From Candidatus Gastranaerophilales bacterium (GTDB lineage: Bacteria > Cyanobacteriota > Vampirovibrionia > Gastranaerophilales > Gastranaerophilaceae), in assembly GCA_944324945.1 (NCBI GenBank), contig CALUYE010000001.1, forward strand, positions 124,001-188,000: a stretch of 64,000 bases of DNA. The letters run 5' to 3'. Positions 24,171-38,596 of the stretch are shown here, one piece after another. Position numbers and translations under genes: made by a program. Position 1 is the stretch's first letter. Every line of letters starts with the position of its first letter. Below the pieces are notes generated by a model. It saw only the letters and a list, made by a program, of their open reading frames with translations, was not told where the DNA came from and searched no databases.

Positions 24171-24609
24171 AAAGTCGGCTGGTGATTGCGCGGTTGGGAT
24201 GGGGCGTGATAGCCTTGTTTAAATCGTGAGGAAAGTCCGGGCAGCCTGAACAGTAATTCGCTCGGGAAATCCGAGTGTCCGCGAGGACGAGGAAAGTGCC
24301 ACAGAAATGAAAATTACTGTGCGTAGTTTTTTAAATGCGATGAGCATTTGAAAAACGAAGACCTTAGATGAGCGACGTAAGAATTTTGCTTGCGCAAAAT
24401 TCCACAGGAGCCATTTAACACAGTACAAGTGCAACGGCGGAGTAAAAGCCCACCGCTGATATTGTGAAATATCAGGCAAGGTAAACCCCGAATGGCTGCA
24501 AGTTTGACTTTGCAAGAGGTACTGTTCCCGTTTTCTTTTGAAACTTGCATAAAAAAACGCACAAGACAGATAATCACCCTATTACAGAACCCGGCTTATA
24601 CCCGACTTT
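24171..24609 (+). ncRNA. rnpB: RNase P RNA (bacterial type A)
   Basis: The catalytic RNA that matures tRNA 5' ends, about 439 nt. Conserved blocks are present in order: GAGGAAAGTCCGGGC at 24228-24242, the central GGCGGAGTAAAAGCCCACCG region near 24435, GGCAAGGTAAACCCC near 24474, and ACAGAACCCGGCTTAT at 24584-24599. The terminal helix P1 is formed by AAAGTCGG (24171-24178) and CCGACTTT (24602-24609), which fixes both ends. Reading frames across this region on the minus strand are not genes. Confidence 0.96.
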
Positions 24610-24633
24610 CTGCCTTTTTTAAGGCAGTTTTTT
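24610..24633 (+). terminator. rnpB terminator
   Basis: CTGCCTT, loop TTTT, AAGGCAG, then six T. It starts immediately after the P1 helix and overlaps the stop codon of the convergent rsmG gene. Confidence 0.92.
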
Positions 24634-25267
24634 AATTTTGAAAAACAATTAAATTCCTGTCAAATTGTTCACTTAGGGGGAGGGTGTATTTTATTGTTTT
24701 TTGGTTTGTGTTTTTATATTTTGAGTTAAATTCATTGATTTCTTCGTTTAGAAGTTTTGATTTATAGATTACAAAATAGCCGTTTTTTTTGAGGTGTTTT
24801 TTGGATAGTTCCCAAACATCAATCATTTTACCTACGGCTCTTGAAACAATTAAATCGACATTTAAAGGAGGGACTTCTTCTATTCTTGAATAAAGAATTT
24901 CTAAATTCTCTAGGTTTAGTTTTTCTTTTATTTCTTTTATAAAATTTATTTTTTTGATTCTTGAGTCGTTTTCAATAATTTTAATATCAGGATTAAAAAT
25001 TGAAAGAATGACGCCCGGGAAGCCTCCCCCGCAGCCAACATCAAGAATTGTTTTATTTTGTTTAAATTTATCCCATTTTAAAATAGCAAGCGAATCAAAA
25101 ACATGTTTTTCAAAAAGAAGGGGGATATCATTTTTACTCATTAAATTTGTATGAGAGTTGTATTTAAGGAAAAACTCTTCCCAGATGTTTAATTTAAAGA
25201 TTATTTCTTTATTAATTTTTATATTAAATTCGTTTTCAAGAATTTCAATTTGTTTTTTATTTATCAT
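24632..25267 (-). CDS. rsmG: 16S rRNA (guanine527-N7)-methyltransferase RsmG
   Basis: SAM-dependent methyltransferase acting on the 530 loop of 16S rRNA. The 211-aa sequence shows the family start region (YNSHTNLMSKNDIPLLFEKH), HVFDSLAIL, the SAM motif ILDVGCGGGFPGVIL and the later DLIVSRAVGK. It overlaps the next upstream gene by 11 bases. In many bacteria rsmG is linked to mnmG; here mnmG lies about 19 kb away. Confidence 0.93.
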   Translation of the reverse strand: MINKKQIEILENEFNIKINKEIIFKLNIWEEFFLKYNSHTNLMSKNDIPLLFEKHVFDSLAILKWDKFKQNKTILDVGCGGGFPGVILSIFNPDIKIIENDSRIKKINFIKEIKEKLNLENLEILYSRIEEVPPLNVDLIVSRAVGKMIDVWELSKKHLKKNGYFVIYKSKLLNEEINEFNSKYKNTNQKTIKYTLPLSEQFDRNLIVFQN

Positions 25268-27587
25268 ATCTTTCCATAATTATTCTAAATGTTGCTTCGT
25301 TTAATCTTACTTTTATATCCTGAATTCTTGAATTGATTCTTATTATATTTTCATCCTGCGGGTTGTTTTTAAGAGCGTGTTTTGCTCTTAAAAAATTAAT
25401 AAGAGCTTTTTCGTCTTCCTGTTTGTCGTAATTAAATTCGCCTATTTCAAAATAAACAAGAGCTTCTTTAAAATTATCTTTTAAGTTTTGTGCGCTTAAA
25501 AGCGCTTGTTTATAGTAGTTCATTGATTGATTTTCATCGATATTTAAATACAATTTTGCAAGTTCTTTTTGAGAAAAGTACATATTTTCAAAATCGTTAT
25601 TTTCGCTGTCAAATTGAAGTGCCAGTTTTAAATATTCGCTTGCCTGTCTGTATTTTGAAAGTTCAATATATATCTGGGCAAGGTTTGTTAGAGAAATTGA
25701 ATAATATTTGTTTTCTTTTTTCTCTGAGCTTGTTAGATAATTTTTTTGATAATATTTAATGGCATTTTCCGTGTCGTTATTTTCGTCATACAAAACAGCA
25801 AGCCTGTAGTATCCCCTGCAGGCAAGTTCTTTATTTTTCCCTTCAGCAAGAGAGATTGCTCTGTTGTATTGTTTTATGGCATCATTAATTGAGGAGTTTT
25901 CAAGTATTTCTCCCAATTCAATAAAAGCTCTTGCGCGGTATAAAAGAGGGTTATCGGTATTATATGCGATTTGTTCGAATTGTTCTTTTGCAATTTCGAT
26001 TTTAAATAATTTAACGTTTGTTTGCGCTATATCGTATTCAATTTTACAAACTCTTGAATCATCCGTTTCTTTTGCTTCTTTAAGAGCTTCGATGTAGCAT
26101 TTTTGGGCAATTGAATAATCGTTTAAATATTCGTAATTTTTAGCAATTAAACCCAAAAGTTCGATTTTAAATTCGTTATCGTAATCTATGCTTTTTGCTC
26201 TTGAAAGTTCGGATATTGCATCGTTGTATTTATAATTTTTTGTTAATTCTCTTGAAGAATTTATTAAATTTATTATAAATTTTCTGTTTTTTTCTTTATT
26301 TTCATTTACTAAAGATTTTTGATTGTTGTCTTCAAGTCTTTTTGAAATAAGCCTTTGTTTATCATCGTTTGAAAGAGCGTTTTTTCTTTCTTTTATTTTT
26401 TCAAATTGAAGAGTGAGTTTGGATTTTGGTTTTAAGTTTTCTTCGCTCCAGTTGGTTCCTCCTAAGCCTAGATAAGGGAGATTTTTAGTTGAGTTTTGTG
26501 TATTAATCCCGGGTATTAAAGAATTAAAAACCTCGATTTCTTTTCTGATAGATTCTCTTGATAGCCTTAAAAGTCTGTCTTTAGGGCTTTTTGCAAGCTC
26601 CTGTTCGTAAATATCTATCATTTTTTTATATCTTGTAATTTTTTCCTGAATTGAAAATGTTTTTGTTATGTATTGTTTAAAATAATCTTTTACGTATATT
26701 TCATCCCTAAAAAAGCTTACAAGAAAATTCTTGGATAAATATTGAACCTGAGCGGTATCGCCTAAATTGTATGCTTCTATAAAATTTTTACTAACGGGAT
26801 GATTAAGAGTACATAAAGTTTTAAAAAGATTTTGATATATATTTGGTGTCAGGGAGACAAATTTTGATACGATAAATTCTTCAAAAAGCAATCTTGAAAC
26901 CAGATTTTTTCTTTCAAATTCGTCAATTAAATCGCTTAATTTAATTCCTGTTGTAGCGCAATATTTAGCGCTCATTTTTAAATAAAGTTCGAGTCCGTTT
27001 GTGATATTGTAAAATTTTTCTTTATTTTCTTCATTTAAAGGCTGTGTCAAAATTGAAATTTTTTCTTTAAATTCTTCTTTTGAAATCTGTTCAATATCAA
27101 GAGTTTGAACTCTTATTGGTTTAAAACGGAAAAGATTTTTTTGGGAATTTCTTGAAACAATAATTATTTTAACATTTTCATAAGTTGCAAGATGGGAAAG
27201 AAAATTAATAATTTCAACATTATCTTCAATACATTCAAAATTTTCCACAATAATAATGCAGTTTGAATCTATTGTTTTAAAATAATGGCTTACTTTATCC
27301 TGAAAATTATCTGTTGTAAATTTTTTTAAAGATATTTTTTGAGCAAGGGAAAAATTTCTTAAGGCATCGTAAAAATTCAAAAGAAAGTCGTTAATCACCG
27401 TGCTTTTAAAGCAAAAATGCTGAAATATAAGATTATTTTCTTCAAGTTCGGGTATAACTTTAGAAATCGTCTCGCTTTTAGCACTTCCTTTCGGCCCGCT
27501 TAAAAAGATTAAATCAAAAGAGGAAGTAGCAAAATTTAATATTTCGTTTATAATGGAATTATTAAATTGAAAAAAGCCTTGAGTCAT
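25257..27587 (-). CDS. P-loop NTPase with C-terminal TPR array (STAND-like)
   Basis: A 776-aa protein from the ATG at 27587 (a TTG at 27623 would add 12 residues; neither has a clear ribosome site, so leaderless translation is possible). Residues about 25-200 form an AAA/STAND-like ATPase: Walker A GPKGSAKSETI, Walker B NCIIIVENFECI, and a sensor-like IIIVSRNS. A helical middle region follows, then from residue about 445 a run of at least six TPR units (SIAQKCYIEALKEAKE, YRLAVLYDENNDTENAIKYY and others). The architecture recalls signal-transducing NTPases of the MalT/STAND kind, but no HTH output domain is visible. Confidence 0.7.
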   Translation of the reverse strand: MTQGFFQFNNSIINEILNFATSSFDLIFLSGPKGSAKSETISKVIPELEENNLIFQHFCFKSTVINDFLLNFYDALRNFSLAQKISLKKFTTDNFQDKVSHYFKTIDSNCIIIVENFECIEDNVEIINFLSHLATYENVKIIIVSRNSQKNLFRFKPIRVQTLDIEQISKEEFKEKISILTQPLNEENKEKFYNITNGLELYLKMSAKYCATTGIKLSDLIDEFERKNLVSRLLFEEFIVSKFVSLTPNIYQNLFKTLCTLNHPVSKNFIEAYNLGDTAQVQYLSKNFLVSFFRDEIYVKDYFKQYITKTFSIQEKITRYKKMIDIYEQELAKSPKDRLLRLSRESIRKEIEVFNSLIPGINTQNSTKNLPYLGLGGTNWSEENLKPKSKLTLQFEKIKERKNALSNDDKQRLISKRLEDNNQKSLVNENKEKNRKFIINLINSSRELTKNYKYNDAISELSRAKSIDYDNEFKIELLGLIAKNYEYLNDYSIAQKCYIEALKEAKETDDSRVCKIEYDIAQTNVKLFKIEIAKEQFEQIAYNTDNPLLYRARAFIELGEILENSSINDAIKQYNRAISLAEGKNKELACRGYYRLAVLYDENNDTENAIKYYQKNYLTSSEKKENKYYSISLTNLAQIYIELSKYRQASEYLKLALQFDSENNDFENMYFSQKELAKLYLNIDENQSMNYYKQALLSAQNLKDNFKEALVYFEIGEFNYDKQEDEKALINFLRAKHALKNNPQDENIIRINSRIQDIKVRLNEATFRIIMERYDK

Positions 27588-27801
27588 AATATTATTGTAT
27601 ATAATATACACTAATATTTGCAATAGGATAAATATTCAATTGTACTAGTATATTAAAATATTGTCATGACCTGAAATGTTGATTAGGTGTACATTTTACG
27701 GTTATTAATAATATTAAAAAATATTAAGAATATTTTTTCAAAAAGGCAAAAAAAGCAATTTAGTGGTGTTTATATAATTGTGTTAGTTGTTTGGGGTAAA
27801 A

Positions 27802-28878
27802 ATGCAACAAGTTACAAGTCCAAGTGTTGAAAATCTGCCAAAAACAGGTTACTATGTCTCAAAAGAAGATAAAAAAGAAAAATTTTATCAAAATGAATCG
27901 CATATACATAAACAAAACCTTCTATCAGGGGTAAAAGCGGGAGCACACAAGCTTACAAACGATATTTTCACATACTTCCCAAAAGGATTTCAAGGCTCCA
28001 AAAACAGCGATTTTTATGAATTTTTATCATTGGGAATGGTTCCTTATTTAATAGGAAGCGCTATGATGATTGCGCTATATAGAAGCGCTAACGGATTTTT
28101 TAATTCAATCGATAAAGCCGCTGCAAATTCGGTTGCAAATAAAATGGCGGCAGGAGTTGTATTGTATGGCGTCGGCAAATGGGCTTCCAAAAAATTAGCC
28201 CATACTTTAATCCACGCATCAACAGGTGTTAATCTTGATATGCTTTATTTAAATAAAGTAAATGAAGTAGCAGAACCGGGACAAGACAAAGGATTAGTCA
28301 GAACGCAATACCCCGGCGTTTTTGATTCCGTTAATTTCTATAGAAGCGATTTATTGGAAAAAGATTCAGAATTAAACCACGAAAGCAAATACTGGTATTA
28401 TGATAAAATTGCTAAAAAAGCAGGTCATAAAGAGCCTTTAAACGACCCCGGACAAACCATGGGAGATAAAATAAGAGAATTAAAAACAAGAACAACCGCA
28501 ATAGAAAACATTACAAAATATATAGCGGCAGCCTGCGGTGTTGCTCTTGGTGCGCAAAAAAGCTTCCAGGATCTCAAATTTAATCCGATATTAAAAAATA
28601 AATACTTTAAATATCCGAACATAAAAATAAAAGTTCTCAACCCCAAAGGACTTTTGAGTAATCTAAAAGGTATGGGTAAGGCCTTTTTGGATTCATTCGG
28701 ACAATTATGGAAGGGAAGCAACAGAAACATATTTACAAAGCATTACGGTAAAGCACTTTTATTGGGCAGTGCTTTAGCTACTCTTTTAACATGGATTATA
28801 CCTACCATAGGCTTTAAGACAAACCCCGATACAATGAAATCCAAAGTTGACACTAAAAAAGAATACGAGGTGTGCTAA
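27802..28878 (+). CDS. Unknown membrane protein, first gene of the GH13 cluster
   Basis: A 358-aa protein started at the ATG at 27802, which has GGGG 6 bases upstream; an in-frame TTG at 27787 is less likely. No signal peptide. Hydrophobic segments are visible near residues 83-100 (MVPYLIGSAMMIALY), 118-132 (MAAGVVLYGVGKW), 240-252 (ITKYIAAACGVALG) and 323-340 (LLLGSALATLLTWIIP). Between them is a soluble part with QYPGVFDSVNFYRSDLL. A -10-like TATAAT lies at 27773-27778. The stop overlaps the next ATG as TAATG. Function unknown; the layout resembles the next gene product. Confidence 0.7.
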   Translation: MQQVTSPSVENLPKTGYYVSKEDKKEKFYQNESHIHKQNLLSGVKAGAHKLTNDIFTYFPKGFQGSKNSDFYEFLSLGMVPYLIGSAMMIALYRSANGFFNSIDKAAANSVANKMAAGVVLYGVGKWASKKLAHTLIHASTGVNLDMLYLNKVNEVAEPGQDKGLVRTQYPGVFDSVNFYRSDLLEKDSELNHESKYWYYDKIAKKAGHKEPLNDPGQTMGDKIRELKTRTTAIENITKYIAAACGVALGAQKSFQDLKFNPILKNKYFKYPNIKIKVLNPKGLLSNLKGMGKAFLDSFGQLWKGSNRNIFTKHYGKALLLGSALATLLTWIIPTIGFKTNPDTMKSKVDTKKEYEVC

Positions 28879-31271
28879 TGCCAAATATAAGTCCTCTTAC
28901 AAGCCGTATGATGACGGATAATACAAAACAAAACGAACATCAGGAAAAAATATATAAGCATTTAGCACAACATGCAAACGATGTTAAGCCAAATGAAGCT
29001 AAAGCAAGATTGGTAAAAGAAAACCCGCTTCAAAGTGCAGCAAGTGCCGTTAGTGATACTTTTAAAGACGGCAAAAACTTTGTAATCGCGGCAAAAACAG
29101 GAAAATTAAACGATAACAGCCTTGGAAGAATTAACGATTTAGGTTTAAAAGCAGGGGCTTTATTAATTGCAGGATTTTTAGCATCAAATGCAAAAACAAA
29201 AACAAACGCAATTATGCAGTTCCTTGGCGGTGCAACATTTTTATCGGTTATGTCTTTATGGCCAAAGATATTTATAAATCTTCCTGCAAGGTTAGTACAC
29301 GGTTTTAGAATTGATCAAAAATACATAAGTGCACAGGGCGATAAAAAGGATGTATATCTTGATAACCAATTTATACCAACGGATATATTCTCAAAACAAG
29401 AATTAAAAGATAACGCAAGACGCTCGGGAATTGATTATGAAAGCGAAAACGGCGAAGAAAAAATACTTCGCAAAATGCAAAAAACAGCTCTTCAAAACAG
29501 AACCCTATGGATGGCAACTGCAGGTTTTGCAACTCCTTTATTAACTGCCGTTATCGGAGATAAGATAGAACCTCTTGTTAAAAACGCTGTAATAAACCAT
29601 GACTTTATGAAATCAAGACAGGCTCTTGATAATATAGATGAAGTTTTCAGCGCTTCTTCTCCTATTGTTAAAAACAAAAAACAACTTGAAGATGTACTTA
29701 TGCAATATTCTTCAAAAAATCTTGATTCCGAAGGATTCAAGAAAATTTCTGCGGCTTTAAATATTGATGTTACTGATATTTTTAAAGATTCGGATGATTT
29801 AAAACCGATTAAAGATTTAAAATTCAATGTTGATGAAAACGCTCTTTCAGTTGCAAGAAACCAGGTTTCAATAATTAAAGACGAAGGCCTTGAAGAAACA
29901 TTGAAAAATGCATTTAGCGATTTAATTAAATCAAAAGATGCAACACAAGGCACAAGCGAAAGAGCAAAAGGAATATTTGCAAACGTTAAAACCATCCAAG
30001 AATCCCACAACGGCAAAATTGAAGCCGAAAAATTAGATGAAGTTATTAATAATTTTAAAAACTTAAAAGAAGGCAAAACTTATATTAAATTAAGACAAAT
30101 GCTGCAGGAAGCCTTCAATGCTCAAGGCAATAAAAAATTAACATCCTTAATAGATACAAAGCTTTCCAATATGGATTTAAAATATGATGATACTCCTTTC
30201 TTTGAAGCAGTAAGACAATACAATGACGAAATCTTAGCTTCCATAAGAGGAAGATTAAAAACTTATCTTGATATCTTAAATCCCGTTGCAGGTTCTAAAG
30301 ATGAATCCGTATATACAAAAATCTACAGACAGGCAATGGAGAAAATATTTAACAAAGCTAATTTTACAAAAGAAGAATTAACGGCTATAAAATTACCTCC
30401 GACAAATTCTGCACAGCATAAAACGCTTGACGTATTAACAAATTTCTTCCAAAGATTTGCTTCGTTATCTGATGAAGAATATACAAATGCAATCAAGGAA
30501 TTTGTTGTTGAAGATAAAGACAATATGGTCAGAGATTTTATACAAAAAATGTATTCAAAAGACAACAAAGAAACAATCTCAAAAATATGGCAGCTTCAAG
30601 GTGCAGCAAATAAACCCGTGTTTAATATTTTAAACAAAGGTTTGGATAGAGAAATAGAATCAAACATTGAACATTTCATGGATGTTGCAAACGCAAACAT
30701 TACCTCTATAAGATCCAAAGCTTTAATTTGTGCAAACCTTGAAAGACGTATAAAATCAGGCGAATTTGAAGAAGCCTTAAAATCCGTTAATACGATTTTA
30801 GGAAATAAATATATAGATGGCGCCGCCATAGATTCAATAGAAAATTATGCTAAAAACTTTGATACAATACCTGTTGAAGAATGGATTAAAAAAGCAAGAC
30901 AACTTGTATATGAAGGAACGGTTGCTGCTGATGCATGTAAATTGGAACTTGATTTTGAGCATTTCCAAACCTTAAAAAATGTTATATATGATAAAAATGC
31001 ATTTAAAAAAGAAATTGAATTGGTACCCGATCTTGAAGGATTGCTTAAAAACTTAATATTATCCAAAACAGGCGATGTTGATAATTCAAATATCACAGGT
31101 ATCTGCGGTCTTTTAAGAAACAGCGCCAAAGAAATGCTAAACAACAGAACATGGAAGAAAATATTCCTTCCGATGACATTTGCTTTAGTTGCGGTAACTT
31201 TATTGGTTCAACCGCTTTTCGGAAATATTAAAGATGAGTTCCCGGAAACAAAAAAGAAAGGTGCTAAATAA
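28878..31271 (+). CDS. Unknown large membrane protein, second gene of the GH13 cluster
   Basis: A 797-aa protein from the ATG at 28878, with GAGG 7 bases upstream (an in-frame GTG at 28872 is the alternative). N-terminus MPNISPLTSRMM is not a signal peptide. Two hydrophobic segments near residues 92-128 (LKAGALLIAGFLAS, FLGGATFLSVMSL) precede a conserved-looking LVHGFRIDQKYI segment; another hydrophobic patch lies near 215 (MATAGFATPLLTAVIG) and a final TM near 775 (FLPMTFALVAVTLLV). The roughly 500 residues between are predicted soluble and alpha-helical. It overlaps both neighbours by one base (TAATG) so translation is probably coupled. No known domain recognised. Confidence 0.7.
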   Translation: MPNISPLTSRMMTDNTKQNEHQEKIYKHLAQHANDVKPNEAKARLVKENPLQSAASAVSDTFKDGKNFVIAAKTGKLNDNSLGRINDLGLKAGALLIAGFLASNAKTKTNAIMQFLGGATFLSVMSLWPKIFINLPARLVHGFRIDQKYISAQGDKKDVYLDNQFIPTDIFSKQELKDNARRSGIDYESENGEEKILRKMQKTALQNRTLWMATAGFATPLLTAVIGDKIEPLVKNAVINHDFMKSRQALDNIDEVFSASSPIVKNKKQLEDVLMQYSSKNLDSEGFKKISAALNIDVTDIFKDSDDLKPIKDLKFNVDENALSVARNQVSIIKDEGLEETLKNAFSDLIKSKDATQGTSERAKGIFANVKTIQESHNGKIEAEKLDEVINNFKNLKEGKTYIKLRQMLQEAFNAQGNKKLTSLIDTKLSNMDLKYDDTPFFEAVRQYNDEILASIRGRLKTYLDILNPVAGSKDESVYTKIYRQAMEKIFNKANFTKEELTAIKLPPTNSAQHKTLDVLTNFFQRFASLSDEEYTNAIKEFVVEDKDNMVRDFIQKMYSKDNKETISKIWQLQGAANKPVFNILNKGLDREIESNIEHFMDVANANITSIRSKALICANLERRIKSGEFEEALKSVNTILGNKYIDGAAIDSIENYAKNFDTIPVEEWIKKARQLVYEGTVAADACKLELDFEHFQTLKNVIYDKNAFKKEIELVPDLEGLLKNLILSKTGDVDNSNITGICGLLRNSAKEMLNNRTWKKIFLPMTFALVAVTLLVQPLFGNIKDEFPETKKKGAK

Positions 31272-33226
31272 TGGAATATAACAACAAAATAATAAGTCCG
31301 ATACTGGCACAAAAATTAAATATTTCACAAAAACCCGAAGAAAAACAACAACAAGCACCTGTTCAAAATGCCAAACAAAAGCAATATCCCTACAATCCTC
31401 AGGTGGGTCAAAATGTTATTGCTCAAAATAAACAAATCCTTAGTCCTATTCTTGTACAAACTTTAGCTAACTCGGGAATTACAAAAACACAAAACAGCGA
31501 AAACGTACAAAAAACAGGCTTAACTTTAGCGCAACAAAGAGTTCCGGGCTATAAAAACGACTTAAAAGAAGCCCTAACGCACAACAGGGCAAAAATTTTA
31601 GCCGTAATTCCAAGAATTATGAATTCTCAAGATACAGACGGAAACGAATTAATTCAAGGTGATGAAATACACGGCAACTTTATAAATGCAGTCGGCAGGC
31701 TGGACGATATAAAAGAACTTGGTTTTGATACTCTTCACATGCTTCCTATTCACCCGACAGGTAAAACACACGCCATGGGAACGGCGGGTTCTTTATACGC
31801 CCCGAAAGACTTTTTAACGCTTGATCCCGAGCTTGTTGATGAAAATCCTGCTCCCGAAGCAAGAAAAAGAATTGAAGAAATATATCTTCAATTAACAGGC
31901 AAAAAACTTGAAAAAATGGATAAAAATGATCCCGATGTTGCTTTTGCACAATGCGCTTATCTTTTAGATGAATGCCACAAACGCGGAATCAAAGTAATGC
32001 TTGATTTACCTTCCTGTGCAAGCGTAGATTTTGCAAAAGAACATCCTGAAATGATGGCAAAAGAAGCGGACGGTTCCGAAAAAGTTCCTAAAGGATGGCA
32101 GGATATCAGAATGTTTAAGCCTTTTGAGGACGAACAAAACCGCGAATTAAACAAAGACCTGCTTGATATGCACAAAAAATACGTGGATATGTGTGTTAAG
32201 CTTGGTTTTGACGGAATAAGAGCAGATGTAGGCAGAGCAAAACCCGTTGAATTCTGGAATGTAATTATTAATTACTCTCATAATTTAGATCCTAATTTCG
32301 GCTGGTTAGCGGAAACCTATACCCATGAAGACGCTTCTCCTCAGTTAAATATGCCCTATGACAGACCTAAAGAGCTTTTAGAAGTAGGTTTTGATTCATA
32401 CTACGGTCAATATCACATATTCAAAGACTGGACGAAAGCCCAACAGTTATATGATTATGTAAAAGAAAACATAGAATTAAACAACGAAATAGGTCAAAAA
32501 TGCGGCGCAAAATCTTTAATCGGTTCTTTTGCAACCCATGACGATTCATCCCCGATGTTATACGGAGGCGCCCCCTGGGTAATGTTTACAACCGTTCTTC
32601 AAAGCATGCTTCCTCAAGTTAACCCTTATATGACAGACGGTGTTCAAACGGGAGATTATTATATATTCCCTTATGACCATGCACTTGTAGCACAAACGCA
32701 AACCGATAACAACGAATGTACCGTTCACACGGGAAGAATGGATATTTTTAACTATTCAAGAAAACCCGGAGGTCAATTCCCTGAAATTGCAAATGTTGTT
32801 AAATCCGCTTTTGCGCTAAGAAGCAATGAATATAATAAAATTAACGGAAGTTCAAGTTTAAAACTTAAAATGAATGATGCTCAAGATGTTATTACAAAAG
32901 GTTCATTCATCATACTTCCTACAAACAACCCTGAAATCATTGCTTTTGCAAGACATAAGGACGGAAAAACACTTTTGTTTATCGGAAACCGAAATGTTAA
33001 TAAAACAGTAGGCGGAACAATTCAAATACCCGGATTAAAAGAAAATCAAAAATTTAACAACTTAATCCCTGCCTATGGTGAACCCTGCAAAATTCAAAAC
33101 AATCAAAACGGCTCAATTAATGTTGAATTAGGAACAAGCAGAGCCTGCGTTTTTGAAATAGATAACCCTGATATTGAAAAATTATCTAAAGAAGAAAATG
33201 TGCTTCAGCAAAAATATATAGATTAG
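31271..33226 (+). CDS. GH13 alpha-amylase-family protein
   Basis: A 651-aa alpha-amylase-family enzyme acting on alpha-glucans or related substrates. After a Gln-rich N-terminal tail (1-90) comes the (beta/alpha)8 barrel: LGFDTLHMLPIHP, GIKVMLDLP, then nucleophile Asp319 in GFDGIRADVGR, acid/base Glu348 in WLAETY, and His423-Asp424 in FATHDD. The full catalytic triad is therefore present. A C-terminal beta domain follows (about 540-640). There is no signal peptide. The N-terminal tail contains two copies of a short motif (IISPILAQKL, ILSPILVQTL). TAATG coupling to the upstream membrane protein. Exact specificity cannot be read from sequence. Confidence 0.85.
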   Translation: MEYNNKIISPILAQKLNISQKPEEKQQQAPVQNAKQKQYPYNPQVGQNVIAQNKQILSPILVQTLANSGITKTQNSENVQKTGLTLAQQRVPGYKNDLKEALTHNRAKILAVIPRIMNSQDTDGNELIQGDEIHGNFINAVGRLDDIKELGFDTLHMLPIHPTGKTHAMGTAGSLYAPKDFLTLDPELVDENPAPEARKRIEEIYLQLTGKKLEKMDKNDPDVAFAQCAYLLDECHKRGIKVMLDLPSCASVDFAKEHPEMMAKEADGSEKVPKGWQDIRMFKPFEDEQNRELNKDLLDMHKKYVDMCVKLGFDGIRADVGRAKPVEFWNVIINYSHNLDPNFGWLAETYTHEDASPQLNMPYDRPKELLEVGFDSYYGQYHIFKDWTKAQQLYDYVKENIELNNEIGQKCGAKSLIGSFATHDDSSPMLYGGAPWVMFTTVLQSMLPQVNPYMTDGVQTGDYYIFPYDHALVAQTQTDNNECTVHTGRMDIFNYSRKPGGQFPEIANVVKSAFALRSNEYNKINGSSSLKLKMNDAQDVITKGSFIILPTNNPEIIAFARHKDGKTLLFIGNRNVNKTVGGTIQIPGLKENQKFNNLIPAYGEPCKIQNNQNGSINVELGTSRACVFEIDNPDIEKLSKEENVLQQKYID

Positions 33227-33277
33227 AAGTTAAACAATAGTCCTCATTGGGAAAATATTTAATATAAAGGATGAGTT

Positions 33278-36200
33278 ATGGATCTATCAATTAAATCAGT
33301 TCAAAATAAGAGACAACTTAATTTCCAAGGCGTAAAAGGAGACTATGATTCCAAAAATAAACAAGTCTTCAGATTCAGCCTGCCTTCATACAGACCTCAA
33401 AAAGAAACACCCTATCTTGAAATATCACTTTTGGATTATAGGGCAAATGCGGCAGGTACGCTTGGTTCAAACAGCTTTGTCCCGACTGAGACAGTATTGA
33501 TTCCCTTTGAAGATAAAACAACAATCGAACTTCCGCAGGAAGAATTTAAAAAAGCGGGATATAGCGCTTTTGCTTACAGATATGTTTTTGAAGATAACAA
33601 CGGAAACAGAAGATACGCCCTTGACGGATTTAAAAAAGAAAGATTGTTCGGCGAAGAAAAAAATATAATCGAAATAGGCGATAACTTTGGCGTTACTCCG
33701 ATTTCAGGCGCAATGCGCCACTCGTTTATAGATTCTGACGGGATTGACGTTTCAAAATTAAGCAAAAAAGATAAAGAATTCATAAGAACACACCACAATA
33801 AACTGGGAGGTTCCATTAAAGGTTTAACTTATCTTTTAGATAACGGATATTTTGACGGATTTAAATATATAATCTCAACCCCCGATATCGGCGCAGACCC
33901 GACTTCTCCTCATAAATACTGGCCAAATAACCAATATCAGTGTACTAATATGAATGATTTTAAAGAATTTAACTTTGAATTATTCAAAAACGGAAAAGGA
34001 TACGTGGCAGACGGCGCTTTTACTTCTCAAAGCCTTCAATCTCCTTTGGTTGCACATGTTTTAAAGTGGGGTGATAAATCTCCTTTTTATAATATGTTAA
34101 AAATGGAAGACGGCATTAATCTGGGTATAATTCCTGAAAACGAAGAAGCCTTTAATCACACAGGGGTTAAAATTATCAACGCTCCAAACAGCGAACACTA
34201 TGATAAAAAGAAACCTGTTTTAATGCAGTTTTATGACGATAGAACAACATCCGAAAAGCAAATTGAAGATACCGTTCATACAATAGACAAATACGATATA
34301 CCAAACCCTGAGGACCATTATGATATCGTATCTTATCAGGATCTTGTTCATCCTTTTTATTTTGAAATTCCCGATGATGAGATTGATAAAAAACTTGCTC
34401 TTTTTGAAAAAAATGAAAATCATCTTTTGTTAAAAGATTTATCCGATGAAGAACTTGATACTCTTTTAAATGTCGGACACGGAAATATAGTAAACCGCTA
34501 CAATGCTTCAAGTGCAACATATTGGGATGGCAATGTCGATATTATAAAAATGAATTTATCAAACCCCAATAAATCAAACAAGGCAAATGTTGAAGGCTTT
34601 TTCAATGCAAGAAAATACCTATACGGCGTTGCAACATTCTGGAGCGAAACAATACAAAGCGATTTAATTTTTAACAGTGCAAAATTAAGCGAAAAAGAAA
34701 TTAATGAAATCGCTCTAAAAAACGGCATAATGCAGGATGAATACGAAGCAATAAAAGAAAATATAAACAATAAAGAAACGTATTTACCTGTTTTAGCTCA
34801 AAATAAAACCGTTGAAGATTATGTAAGCGAATTTCCGCTTCAATCAATCGAAACAAGCCCTGAATTAAGCGCAATATTTTCACAACCTCAATTCAATGAA
34901 CAATTTCTTAAAGGTAAAACTTTTGATAATATAGTTGAATTAACCAAAAAAGCAATAAAAGAAATTACACCCGATAAATACAAAGACAACGATGAATATC
35001 TTACATACGTTACAAAAACCTGTGCAAATGAAATAATAAGACATATTCTGATTTCTGCTATGGCGCCTGATGCAATTAATTCAGACGGCTCTGTCGATTT
35101 AGAAAAATTAAAAAACAAAGCAACACTTAAAAGAATGTTAAAATTACCTCCGATATCAGTAGAAGATGAAAGAGCTCAGGTAATTTCAAGAATAAGAAAA
35201 AATTTAAACTCTATAGATATAAAAAATATAAAAAACAAACTAAGAAAAGATTTAAAAAATATCTCTCTTGAAAACTTCAAACTTGCAGATTCGGTTGTAT
35301 TACAGGGTCATGGAGGTTTGAATTGGAGATTTGATGCCGCTAAAGATATTGCAGACCTTGAATCAATTAAAAATTCCACATCAACCTTTAAAGATTTATG
35401 GAGCGGAACCGTGGATATACCGGGTACACAGCAATTCTGGGGTGAATTTATTAAAAGAATTAAAACCTATAATCCTTCTTCTTATATCATTGCCGAAATT
35501 ACAAACTTCGGAGACGGATTATACAATTGGAACGATTTTGATTCCATGATGAATTATGATTCCAGGGTTGCAAATTCTTATTTAAATAAAATCAAAGACG
35601 ATATTGATGAAGTTGAAAATCCTACAAGCACACTATCACAGCTTGCAAATACATTCTGCGATGAAACGTTGAGTTTTGATAAAAGAAGAGAAGCTTTCAG
35701 ACGCGCAATGAATATCATGGATGAAAACAGATCTAAATATCCTACATACGATAATTACGAAAACAATCTTCCTTACGCAAAAGAACAAGAATTCCTTGAA
35801 CAAATAGGAGCTTCAACAAGCTCAAATTACGATAAATATTTTAATAATTTATCGGCTTTTGTGGGGGTAGATCCTGAACATGGTTACGATAAGAGCTATT
35901 GCGCGGGAGATGTCAGAAATCTTAAAAATAAAACAAACGAACTTATAAAATATTCTCAACCGAATTCGATTCTAATGTCTCATGTATTCACAGACAACCA
36001 CGATAAACCCCGCCTAATGCATACATTGCCTTTAGATATGGGTTTATATGTTAAAAGTATCAATCAAGATGCCATAATAAACGGAAACAGTATAAAAAAT
36101 CTGGATAGAGACGCAAAAGAAAAAATATACGAATTAACAGGCAGAGGCGATTTTGAAAATTTAAACTCTCAGGCTGTTGCTGTTGGTCTTATGATGAAAT

Positions 36201-37078
36201 CTAAAATTGAAGAAATATACGTAAAAGACAAAAAAACACAAAAACAGCTTCTTGATGCCCTAAAAGACCTTGTAAACGGTAAAAAAGGCGATAAATTCGT
36301 ATACAGACGCGCAAGCGCGTTCGGCACACTGCCTTATGAAATAACTGTCAGAGATTTATTTAAAAAAGCAGGAATAGATGATGAAGGTGAAATAAAAAAT
36401 TTCATTTACAGTATCGTTCAAGAACCCATGGATTTACAGGATAAGTTATGGCAGGTAATGAATGCACTAACAGGTGTTCCTACCATGTATTACGGTACGG
36501 ATTACGCTCAAACAGGCTATGAATCAGCAAGTAAAAACCTATGGTGGGGAAACAGAGACAGAGCCCGCCATGAAAGAAGAGATGACAAATTATATGCTCC
36601 TTTCTATAATAAAATGCATGCAATTTCGTCTTTATCTTTAATGCCTAATTTATCGGCTTTAAAAAACGGGTATCCCGAGCTTTTAAATATTACTTCAAAA
36701 GATAATCTTGATTTCTTCCCGATATATCGCAAAGACGAAAGAGGAAGCGAAGTTTTAAGCGTTATTACAAATTACGGAATTGAGAAAAATCAACCGTCAA
36801 GAAATCATAAAAAAACTTCAACCAGACAAAAAACGGATTCTATTAAAATCGCAAACGACAGATACTGTCCTTTTGAAGAAGGTCAAATTTTAAAAAGAAT
36901 GGTCTATGATGAATCTTTAGGAAAATACGTAAGCGAAGATGTTGACTATGAAGTAAAAGGCGCAGCTATTACAAGAAAAGACAAAAAAGACATAGTAATT
37001 GATGACAGTGTTCTAACATTCTATGTTGATAAACAAAGAAATCCTAAATTTGTTCCGTCATACTACGGTGCGCGTTAG
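33278..37078 (+). CDS. Very large GH13-like protein
   Basis: A 1266-aa GH13 relative, about twice the usual size. Residues 1-20 carry an NFQG motif (KRQLNFQGVKG), then a possible N-terminal beta domain. The catalytic residues are recognisable: Asp686 in LNWRFDAAKD, Glu740 in IIAEITN and His908-Asp909 in TDNHDKPR, with TMYYGTDYAQTG further on. The first barrel strands seem to be split by large insertions (residues about 330-660), and an insert of about 100 residues lies between Glu740 and Asp909. No signal peptide or TM segment. AAGGATG precedes the ATG. It ends the four-gene run. Probably active on a glucan, but the insertions are unexplained. Confidence 0.8.
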   Translation: MDLSIKSVQNKRQLNFQGVKGDYDSKNKQVFRFSLPSYRPQKETPYLEISLLDYRANAAGTLGSNSFVPTETVLIPFEDKTTIELPQEEFKKAGYSAFAYRYVFEDNNGNRRYALDGFKKERLFGEEKNIIEIGDNFGVTPISGAMRHSFIDSDGIDVSKLSKKDKEFIRTHHNKLGGSIKGLTYLLDNGYFDGFKYIISTPDIGADPTSPHKYWPNNQYQCTNMNDFKEFNFELFKNGKGYVADGAFTSQSLQSPLVAHVLKWGDKSPFYNMLKMEDGINLGIIPENEEAFNHTGVKIINAPNSEHYDKKKPVLMQFYDDRTTSEKQIEDTVHTIDKYDIPNPEDHYDIVSYQDLVHPFYFEIPDDEIDKKLALFEKNENHLLLKDLSDEELDTLLNVGHGNIVNRYNASSATYWDGNVDIIKMNLSNPNKSNKANVEGFFNARKYLYGVATFWSETIQSDLIFNSAKLSEKEINEIALKNGIMQDEYEAIKENINNKETYLPVLAQNKTVEDYVSEFPLQSIETSPELSAIFSQPQFNEQFLKGKTFDNIVELTKKAIKEITPDKYKDNDEYLTYVTKTCANEIIRHILISAMAPDAINSDGSVDLEKLKNKATLKRMLKLPPISVEDERAQVISRIRKNLNSIDIKNIKNKLRKDLKNISLENFKLADSVVLQGHGGLNWRFDAAKDIADLESIKNSTSTFKDLWSGTVDIPGTQQFWGEFIKRIKTYNPSSYIIAEITNFGDGLYNWNDFDSMMNYDSRVANSYLNKIKDDIDEVENPTSTLSQLANTFCDETLSFDKRREAFRRAMNIMDENRSKYPTYDNYENNLPYAKEQEFLEQIGASTSSNYDKYFNNLSAFVGVDPEHGYDKSYCAGDVRNLKNKTNELIKYSQPNSILMSHVFTDNHDKPRLMHTLPLDMGLYVKSINQDAIINGNSIKNLDRDAKEKIYELTGRGDFENLNSQAVAVGLMMKSKIEEIYVKDKKTQKQLLDALKDLVNGKKGDKFVYRRASAFGTLPYEITVRDLFKKAGIDDEGEIKNFIYSIVQEPMDLQDKLWQVMNALTGVPTMYYGTDYAQTGYESASKNLWWGNRDRARHERRDDKLYAPFYNKMHAISSLSLMPNLSALKNGYPELLNITSKDNLDFFPIYRKDERGSEVLSVITNYGIEKNQPSRNHKKTSTRQKTDSIKIANDRYCPFEEGQILKRMVYDESLGKYVSEDVDYEVKGAAITRKDKKDIVIDDSVLTFYVDKQRNPKFVPSYYGAR

Positions 37079-37086
37079 GTAATTAT

Positions 37087-37115
37087 AAAGGCGTAAATAA
37101 AATGTTTACGCCTTT
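37087..37115. terminator. Bidirectional terminator after the GH13 cluster
   Basis: GGCGTAAA (37090-37097), 7-base loop, TTTACGCC (37105-37112), flanked by AAA and TTT. It closes the plus-strand cluster and also suits the convergent HCP-like gene. Confidence 0.85.
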
Positions 37116-38596
37116 TATTCAATAACATTAATCTTAAATTCGTTTTTTAGCGCCTGAATAACATGCGGATTTATTAAAAGATTTGAACAGCTTGCAAGAT
37201 AAATTTCAATTTCTTTATTTAACAACAATAAAACCACTTCCAGATTTAACAAATTACATTCAGTAAAAAGAAGAGTTATTTTAATTTGTTTTTCTTTTAA
37301 AATGTCAATGAAATTAAATAATTCATCAAAAGGATATTGAAGATTTATTATTTTATCTCCATCCTTAAAAGTTTGTTTTTTATTTATTTCACCTATTATT
37401 ACAGCTATTTCATCATCATTATATTCAATAAAATCTTTTTTTAATTTTTCTGAATCATATTCAATTTTATGAGGCTCTTTTTTTTCAAAAGTACGATTTT
37501 CTTCTTTTAAAGCAGATAAAACTAAAGGCGAATAGTCATTATTATTGATATCTGAAACGCGTTCAAAAGAAATTATTTTATTTGAAAAAATTTCACCTCT
37601 GTATAAATTATCGATTTTTTGTACAAAATTTTGGCTTAAAAGAATCGAACCTTTGAAAATTGAAAAATCGTATTCCGGGTTATCTGTTCCGATATGACCT
37701 TTTAAATATTTATTTTCTTTAAAAAAGGGATACAAATGAGCATTTATTAAAGCCTGGTTTGTGTAAACGTTAATTTTTTCTTTTATTTCGCTGTCGAGTT
37801 CAATTTTCTCAATTGTATTTAAAACATTCTCAAGCTCGTCTAAATCACTTCCCGAAACAAGTATTCCAAAGCCTTTATAAATATTTTCACAAACGGTTGT
37901 CGCTTCTTTTTTTCCGTATTTTTCTTCAAGACACAATTGCAATTCTTTTTTTATTTCAAGTGCAACAGCTGAAAATTCAAGTATTCTTCTTTTGATTTTT
38001 TCATCTCTTATTGAGTACCCGTTTGTTAAAGAGAAAAACCTGATAATTTCATAGTTAAATTTTTCTATTTTTTCGCTTGTGCAGTTATTTAACTTTTTAA
38101 TTTTTAAAACATTTATAGCGCTTAATTTTGCAAAAAATGCAATTAAATCAAACATGTAAAGCTTATTTTTGTTATCGTTTTTTTGTTTATTTGAAATAAA
38201 AATCTGCGAATTTTCAATTAAATCCGAAATTGTTGTATTTTCTTTAATATCAACACTGCTTGTTATCATTTCACAGGGCAAATTATATATATTACAGTAT
38301 TCAATATATTTTTCTTTTATTTCTTTTTTTAAAGAATTAAGATTTTTAACAAGTTTTAAATATTTTATCTTATTAAAACTGGTATTAATAAGAAAAATCG
38401 ACAATCCTTCAATCAATTTTTCCATGGCTTTTTTATTTATCAAATTAAACTCTTTTAATTTAACAATATAAAAAGATGTTTCTCTTATTTCGTTTAATAA
38501 AATTTCATACAATGCGCTCACGCTCGGATGTATTGAACATACTCCGATTGAGCTGCAGGAATTTTGTTTTAAAAGGTTTTTAAAATATTCATACAT
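37115..38596 (-). CDS. Hybrid-cluster-protein homologue lacking most cluster ligands
   Basis: A 493-aa relative of hydroxylamine reductase/hybrid cluster protein (HCP). Alignment by eye is clear: SCSSIGVCSIHPSVSAL near the N-terminus corresponds to the GCTxxGVCGK region, then ILVSGSDLDELE, INVYTNQALINAHLYP, GSILLSQNFV and RGEIFSNKII follow HCP order. But the hybrid-cluster ligands are changed: His of GHD is Ser, Glu of the EMLPAHGYP segment is Ala, Cys of TTNC is Phe, and the later GCDG, LGCGKYR and GQCNDA cysteines are absent. Only the late Glu (LFTECN) may remain. Of the four N-terminal cysteines two are kept (14 and 20). Probably not a classic reductase. Confidence 0.68.
   Translation of the reverse strand: MYEYFKNLLKQNSCSSIGVCSIHPSVSALYEILLNEIRETSFYIVKLKEFNLINKKAMEKLIEGLSIFLINTSFNKIKYLKLVKNLNSLKKEIKEKYIEYCNIYNLPCEMITSSVDIKENTTISDLIENSQIFISNKQKNDNKNKLYMFDLIAFFAKLSAINVLKIKKLNNCTSEKIEKFNYEIIRFFSLTNGYSIRDEKIKRRILEFSAVALEIKKELQLCLEEKYGKKEATTVCENIYKGFGILVSGSDLDELENVLNTIEKIELDSEIKEKINVYTNQALINAHLYPFFKENKYLKGHIGTDNPEYDFSIFKGSILLSQNFVQKIDNLYRGEIFSNKIISFERVSDINNNDYSPLVLSALKEENRTFEKKEPHKIEYDSEKLKKDFIEYNDDEIAVIIGEINKKQTFKDGDKIINLQYPFDELFNFIDILKEKQIKITLLFTECNLLNLEVVLLLLNKEIEIYLASCSNLLINPHVIQALKNEFKINVIE

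Follow-up and report, generated by a model that had tools for sequence, protein, structure and literature searches.

A conserved, undescribed module of two related membrane proteins and two GH13 enzymes in Vampirovibrionia gut bacteria

The cassette and its surroundings

Four co-directional genes, here called A, B, C and D, occupy positions 27802-37078 on the + strand of the window, the whole stretch of 64,000 nucleotides analysed, which comes from a Candidatus Gastranaerophilales genome of 1.92 Mb (99.9% complete). The group lives in the gut and belongs to Vampirovibrionia, a cyanobacterial class that does not photosynthesise. Gene A (27802..28878) encodes a 358-aa polytopic membrane protein without a known family, and gene B (28878..31271) a 797-aa membrane protein homologous to A. 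They are followed by gene C (31271..33226), for a 651-aa GH13 enzyme without a signal peptide, and gene D (33278..37078), for a 1266-aa GH13 enzyme with a neopullulanase-type core. A and B, and likewise B and C, overlap by one base in a TAATG junction, and 51 bases separate C from D. The first-pass annotation had put the TAATG overlaps at three, beside a gap of 50 bases; such junctions do exist, although they number two and the one gap is of 51 bases. The numbers of promoters and terminators found by a scan fall inside the range seen with shuffled sequence.

Upstream of A, on the - strand and divergent from it, lies the gene of a 788-aa P-loop/TPR protein (25257..27623), assigned from domain hits and conserved position. 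It is found 68-205 bases upstream of A, in the same divergent orientation, in most loci of the clade in which D is attached to the trio, and it keeps this place beside the cassette in many genera. The protein has TPR hits, with a MalT-like TPR match below the cut-off, and no DNA-binding domain was seen in it; it is a possible regulator of the cassette. At the other end, a 493-aa protein without a Pfam match is encoded convergently with D (37115-38596) and is kept beside D within the genus. The sole Rfam match in the window is an RNase P RNA of class A (RF00010, 175.7 bits) at 24171-24613.

Two membrane protein families and two remote GH13 proteins

The window's A and B proteins gave no above-cut-off match in Pfam or NCBIfam, where isolated family members had weak hits only, and no convincing match among PDB sequences. 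The earlier view that they are related to each other is borne out by hhalign (profile-profile probability 90%, E 1.4e-6, about 200 columns), and the B profile also finds A genes of sister lineages with E values down to 5e-11. By these profile comparisons, A and B are two related membrane protein families without a known match. Averaged hydropathy places the hydrophobic segments of B near residues 88-105, 112-132, 209-230 and 765-782, the third and fourth being separated by about 530 mostly variable residues; A has two strong segments and weaker ones at places comparable to those of B, and the chief difference between the two proteins is this ~530-residue segment. Lys and Arg are equally rich on both flanks of the last transmembrane segment of B, which makes the positive-inside rule uninformative for its topology. 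The AlphaFold model of A (pLDDT 86.4, pTM 0.80, from 50 sequences) had no Foldseek match at E<=0.001 (probability at most 0.12) and Z scores below 5 in VIA; both searches returned only generic helix bundles, which were dismissed as noise. Within the genus, an 'ISPxL' motif is visible at the start of both B and C; it is not conserved in other genera and was left out of account.

Protein C of the window scores 16.4 bits against the Pfam GH13 model, under the cut-off of 22. Its profile nevertheless matches PDB entries of the fold, namely 4gkl, a maltogenic amylase (E 6.3e-23), 1gju, the maltosyltransferase of T. maritima (E 7e-19), 3dhu (E 1.9e-18) and GlgE (E 6e-16). The Asp-Glu-Asp triad of GH13 is present, together with the R-x-D of region II: R317, the nucleophile Asp319 (32225..32227) and the acid/base Glu348 (32312..32314) are each found in 99 of 99 aligned sequences, and the transition-state stabiliser Asp424 (32540..32542) in 98 of them. 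Region I reads DLPSCAS (residues 245-251; 32003..32023), with Cys249-Ala250 standing for the canonical Asn-His of GH13; D245 and P247 are conserved in 99/99 sequences, S248 in 98/99 and C249 in 95/99. Ahead of the catalytic part runs a variable Q/P-rich extension of about 90 residues.

Protein D of the window matches no GH13 model of Pfam, and its identity comes from a profile match to cyclomaltodextrinase/neopullulanase entries of the PDB (E 2.4e-15) and from a model of 1199 residues (pLDDT 91.6, pTM 0.92), which VIA superposes on 2z1k over 428 residues at 3.0 A (Z 28.9). This model contains the (beta/alpha)8 barrel, and the GH13 triad accompanies it, with the nucleophile Asp686 (35333..35335), the acid/base Glu740 (35495..35497) and the transition-state stabiliser Asp909 (36002..36004) each present in 62 of 62 sequences. 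Beyond the core, D has a beta-sandwich at its N-terminus and is interrupted by long helical insertions. The largest insertion, delimited by DSSP of the model and the alignment, comprises about 225 residues (~456-679; 34643..35314) between regions V and II. Region I has T249-S250 where Asn-His would be expected (Val-Asn in nine of the 62 sequences), and region V, IIKMN, bears a partial likeness to MPKLN. A profile comparison of C with D gave E 0.08, that is, no homology beyond the common fold, and a direct relationship between the two was rejected. The GH13 label of the first-pass annotation is thus real for both proteins, if remote, being secured by the profile-to-PDB matches and, for D, by the model; the catalytic residues that it named (Asp319/Glu348/Asp424 in C, Asp686/Glu740/Asp909 in D) proved to be invariant alignment columns, with the one exception at Asp424. 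In GH13 at large, region I closes with Asn-His in most subfamilies (PMC11239784). From their alignments, C and D look like new GH13 groups outside the nearest characterised subfamilies.

Both proteins had been described as lacking a signal peptide, and hydropathy agrees: neither has a hydrophobic N-terminal segment, the maximum KD-19 value over the first 60 residues being 0.65 in C and 0.23 in D. The genome does encode a secreted sister of C, since a paralogue with a similar DLPSC region I carries a typical signal peptide (G000:C2:385556-387100, also L139:5556-7100). C and D were rejected as ordinary secreted amylases, both being without a signal peptide and the secreted paralogue of C being a different gene; in profile searches, too, they score elsewhere, as the first-pass annotation had expected. 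A cytoplasmic location of C and D is plausible, given that they appear to have no signal peptide whereas the secreted paralogue of C has one. The same genome also encodes a 790-aa GlgB/TreZ-like GH13 protein without a signal peptide (G000:C3:149955-152327), which falls below the curated cut-offs for GlgB and TreZ and starts with a long polar leader that closes with 'PVSFS'.

Near its N-terminus, D has the sequence LNFQG (residues 14-18; 33317..33331), an instance of the motif [IVLN][SNT]F[KSTQE]G, in which the Phe (F16) and the Gly (G18) are invariant in 62 sequences from two lineages of the class. Similar F-x-G motifs occur in some A and C orthologues of other genera. In the window's own genome, of which five of fifteen contigs were read (1.59 of 1.92 Mb), 13 proteins have the motif after a polar leader, compared with 3 for matched internal stretches. 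A looser form of the motif goes with a start signature (24/66 versus 127/1144); taken alone, it shows only a modest excess (66, compared with 48 ± 6 in shuffled N-termini). The carriers are apparently non-secreted and include FtsH-like and RelA/SpoT-like proteins, a nucleotidyltransferase, a 5'-nucleotidase and unknowns (examples at G000:C4:65273-68332, C3:156376-157569, C2:66509-68326 and C1:302256-303908). The polar leader with F-x-G may be a lineage-specific targeting signal, which we regard as a lead.

Gene order, gene fusion and co-inheritance

A scan with one genome per species yielded 326 relatives of C, and the analysis went on with the best 80 loci. In 75 of these best 80 of 326, all from Gastranaerophilales, A, B and C are contiguous and co-directional, and in the remaining five the trio is cut by contig ends. 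D lies directly 3' of A-B-C in 52 of the same best 80 and is not directly downstream in the other 28, a few of which are contig-end cuts. G040, from a more distant family of the order, likewise has the four genes side by side. Beyond the order, the contiguous trio A-B-C recurs in two more families of the class; ten loci were read there, and four of them have D next to the trio in divergent orientation. Across the class, gene A occurs in 204 of 289 genomes. The arrangement of the cassette is far beyond chance: its order recurs in 75 of the best 80 of 326 loci, and the genes are found together again, rearranged, in sister lineages. In one locus of another genus (L042, G171:C17), a second D-like gene, truncated by the contig end and ~46% identical to D of the window, was seen beside that genome's own, more distant D; it is possibly a transferred copy.

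D is often unlinked to C, and the two are nevertheless inherited together: of 12 genomes with C, 11 also have D, whereas D is missing from all 20 genomes without C. For this count, weak matches to other GH13 proteins (72 bits or less) were treated as absence. The same clean split is seen inside one family (f3). No probability was put on this co-occurrence, because the genomes are not independent. The conserved linkage and the co-occurrence of D with C agree with the earlier expectation that gene order would be kept in relatives, which holds across Gastranaerophilales, and that the four genes would be co-inherited.

In three sister genera (G291, G299 and G307), B and C form a single open reading frame, which encodes 1030, 1082 and 986 residues, respectively. 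In these fusions the GH13 domain follows directly after the last hydrophobic segment of B, and one of the genomes (G307) has a further A-B-C set in which the genes are separate. When neighbouring genes fuse, this is classically taken to mean that their products are physical partners, and on this ground C would be held by B. The B-C fusion is evidence independent of the gene order; it speaks strongly for C working on a tether formed by membrane protein B, and more strongly than any other observation. A literature search found no paper on the A-B-C-D cassette. It is a real, conserved and undescribed module of Vampirovibrionia gut bacteria, and the first-pass proposal of an undescribed, co-inherited four-gene unit that places GH13 enzymes at the membrane is upheld by the gene order and by the fusions in three genera.

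Possible function and comparison with known systems

We give an even chance to the reading that A, B, C and D are one unit, a membrane-anchored complex for alpha-glucan hydrolysis or transglycosylation. The paralogous A and B would form a scaffold in the inner membrane, on which B would hold C as a retaining GH13 alpha-glucan hydrolase/transglycosylase, while D, neopullulanase-like with its large helical insertions, would act on the same substrate as C. The likely job of such a complex would be to trim or re-join chains of alpha-linked glucan or malto-oligosaccharide where it sits in the membrane, the cytoplasmic side being the probable one. Of the earlier wording 'membrane-associated cytoplasmic', the first half is supported by the gene order and the B-C fusions, whereas the second is plausible only. 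Most active GH13 enzymes keep the Asn-His of region I; since C and D lack it, an altered specificity or a low activity of both is possible. The 28 of the best 80 loci in which D is not directly downstream also weigh against the reading as one unit. More tentatively, the cassette might be a new class of membrane-bound glycan machine, in which the paralogous A and B, members of a new family, hold C, in some species as part of one polypeptide, and its partner D, working on a glucan undescribed for the class and targeted by the F-x-G leader; we regard this fuller version as doubtful.

Other functions of the cassette have to be weighed against the anchored hydrolase/transglycosylase. A role in the envelope, in which the A/B scaffold would handle a lipid-linked or exported alpha-glucan and C and D would edit the chain during assembly or export, is suggested by one clade (L075-L077, L250-L252, L254, L257, L258, L266, L267, L269-L273) in which A-B-C sits 58-96 bases downstream of uppP and co-directional with it, after a queD-like gene, kdsC and often also kdsD. 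The product of uppP is undecaprenyl pyrophosphate phosphatase, and this context hints at the cell envelope; that the cassette does not track GlgA also fits such a role. We consider it unlikely, however, as the neighbourhood occurs in that one clade only, there also with the unrelated queD-like gene, and as the conserved cassette has neither a glycosyltransferase nor a flippase. The same independence from GlgA tells against storage glycogen remodelled at the membrane inside the cell. The genome does contain GlgC, GlgA, a GlgX-like enzyme and a phosphorylase-family match, and starch/glycogen use and glycogen storage have been inferred for the group (PMC4040986, PMC5877343). No phyletic link with GlgA was found in either direction, however: strong GlgA is present in five cassette-free genomes of the order (G035, G041, G046, G051 and G052), whereas the cassette-bearing G291, G299, G040 and G045 have a weak GlgA or none. 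With no glg gene inside it and no correlation with GlgA, the cassette was rejected as a glycogen (glg) gene cluster. The storage-polysaccharide role offered in the first-pass annotation is not supported, and we take storage glycogen to be quite unlikely.

C and D might instead serve a membrane transporter as GH13 subunits that are non-enzymatic or chaperone-like, comparable to 4F2hc/rBAT. Membrane-bound GH13 domains without the region I Asn-His, and the fusion of B with C, would suit such subunits, but about 160 sequences keep the triad invariant, with one exception in C at D424, and A and B look unlike known transporters, which makes this very unlikely in our judgement.

The anchored unit deserves attention on several grounds. 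The cassette would be a widespread module of gut bacteria that have hardly any cultured representatives. If the proposal is true, the module would be among the few systems that anchor apparently cytoplasmic amylase-family enzymes through dedicated membrane partners, and through the B-C fusion a role that can be tested is proposed for two new membrane protein families. C and D, as two GH13 groups that have kept the triad without the region I Asn-His, also lend themselves to the question of what this residue pair contributes.

Among characterised proteins, the barrel and triad of C are shared with GH13_48, to which its best PDB profile match, 4gkl from Thermotoga neapolitana, and 3dhu from Lactobacillus plantarum belong. 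GH13_48 is described as having Asn-His at the end of region I and a Cys before the nucleophile, the latter in only 81% of members (PMC11239784). In C, C249-A250 replaces Asn-His and Ala318 precedes Asp319, so that membership of GH13_48 was rejected, and C would differ further by its predicted membrane tether through B. C also aligns over the barrel with GlgE and with 1gju, and the region I Asn-His is missing in GlgE too. In GlgE of S. coelicolor, however, the phosphate of maltose 1-phosphate is bound by N352, K355, Y357 and N395 (PMC4526890), to which K271, Q/G/K274, W276 and V320 of C correspond by sequence alignment only. Three of the four ligands have thus become Lys, Trp and Val, the fourth being variable, and C was rejected as a GlgE (GH13_3). 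D resembles the neopullulanase/cyclomaltodextrinase/TVAII enzymes of the GH13_20 type in its core and N-terminal beta-sandwich and has their fold. It differs from them in ~700 extra residues, largely helical insertions, in the missing region I Asn-His and in the membrane-protein genes alongside. MPKLN in region V marks the GH13_20 neopullulanase type; D has neither this sequence in full nor the Asn-His and was not accepted as a full member. Finally, 4F2hc and rBAT (GH13_34/35) have a GH13 domain at the membrane, as is predicted for C. They are accessory subunits of amino-acid transporters, and subunits of this type lose the catalytic triad; C and D, in which the triads are invariant instead, were rejected as members of that type.
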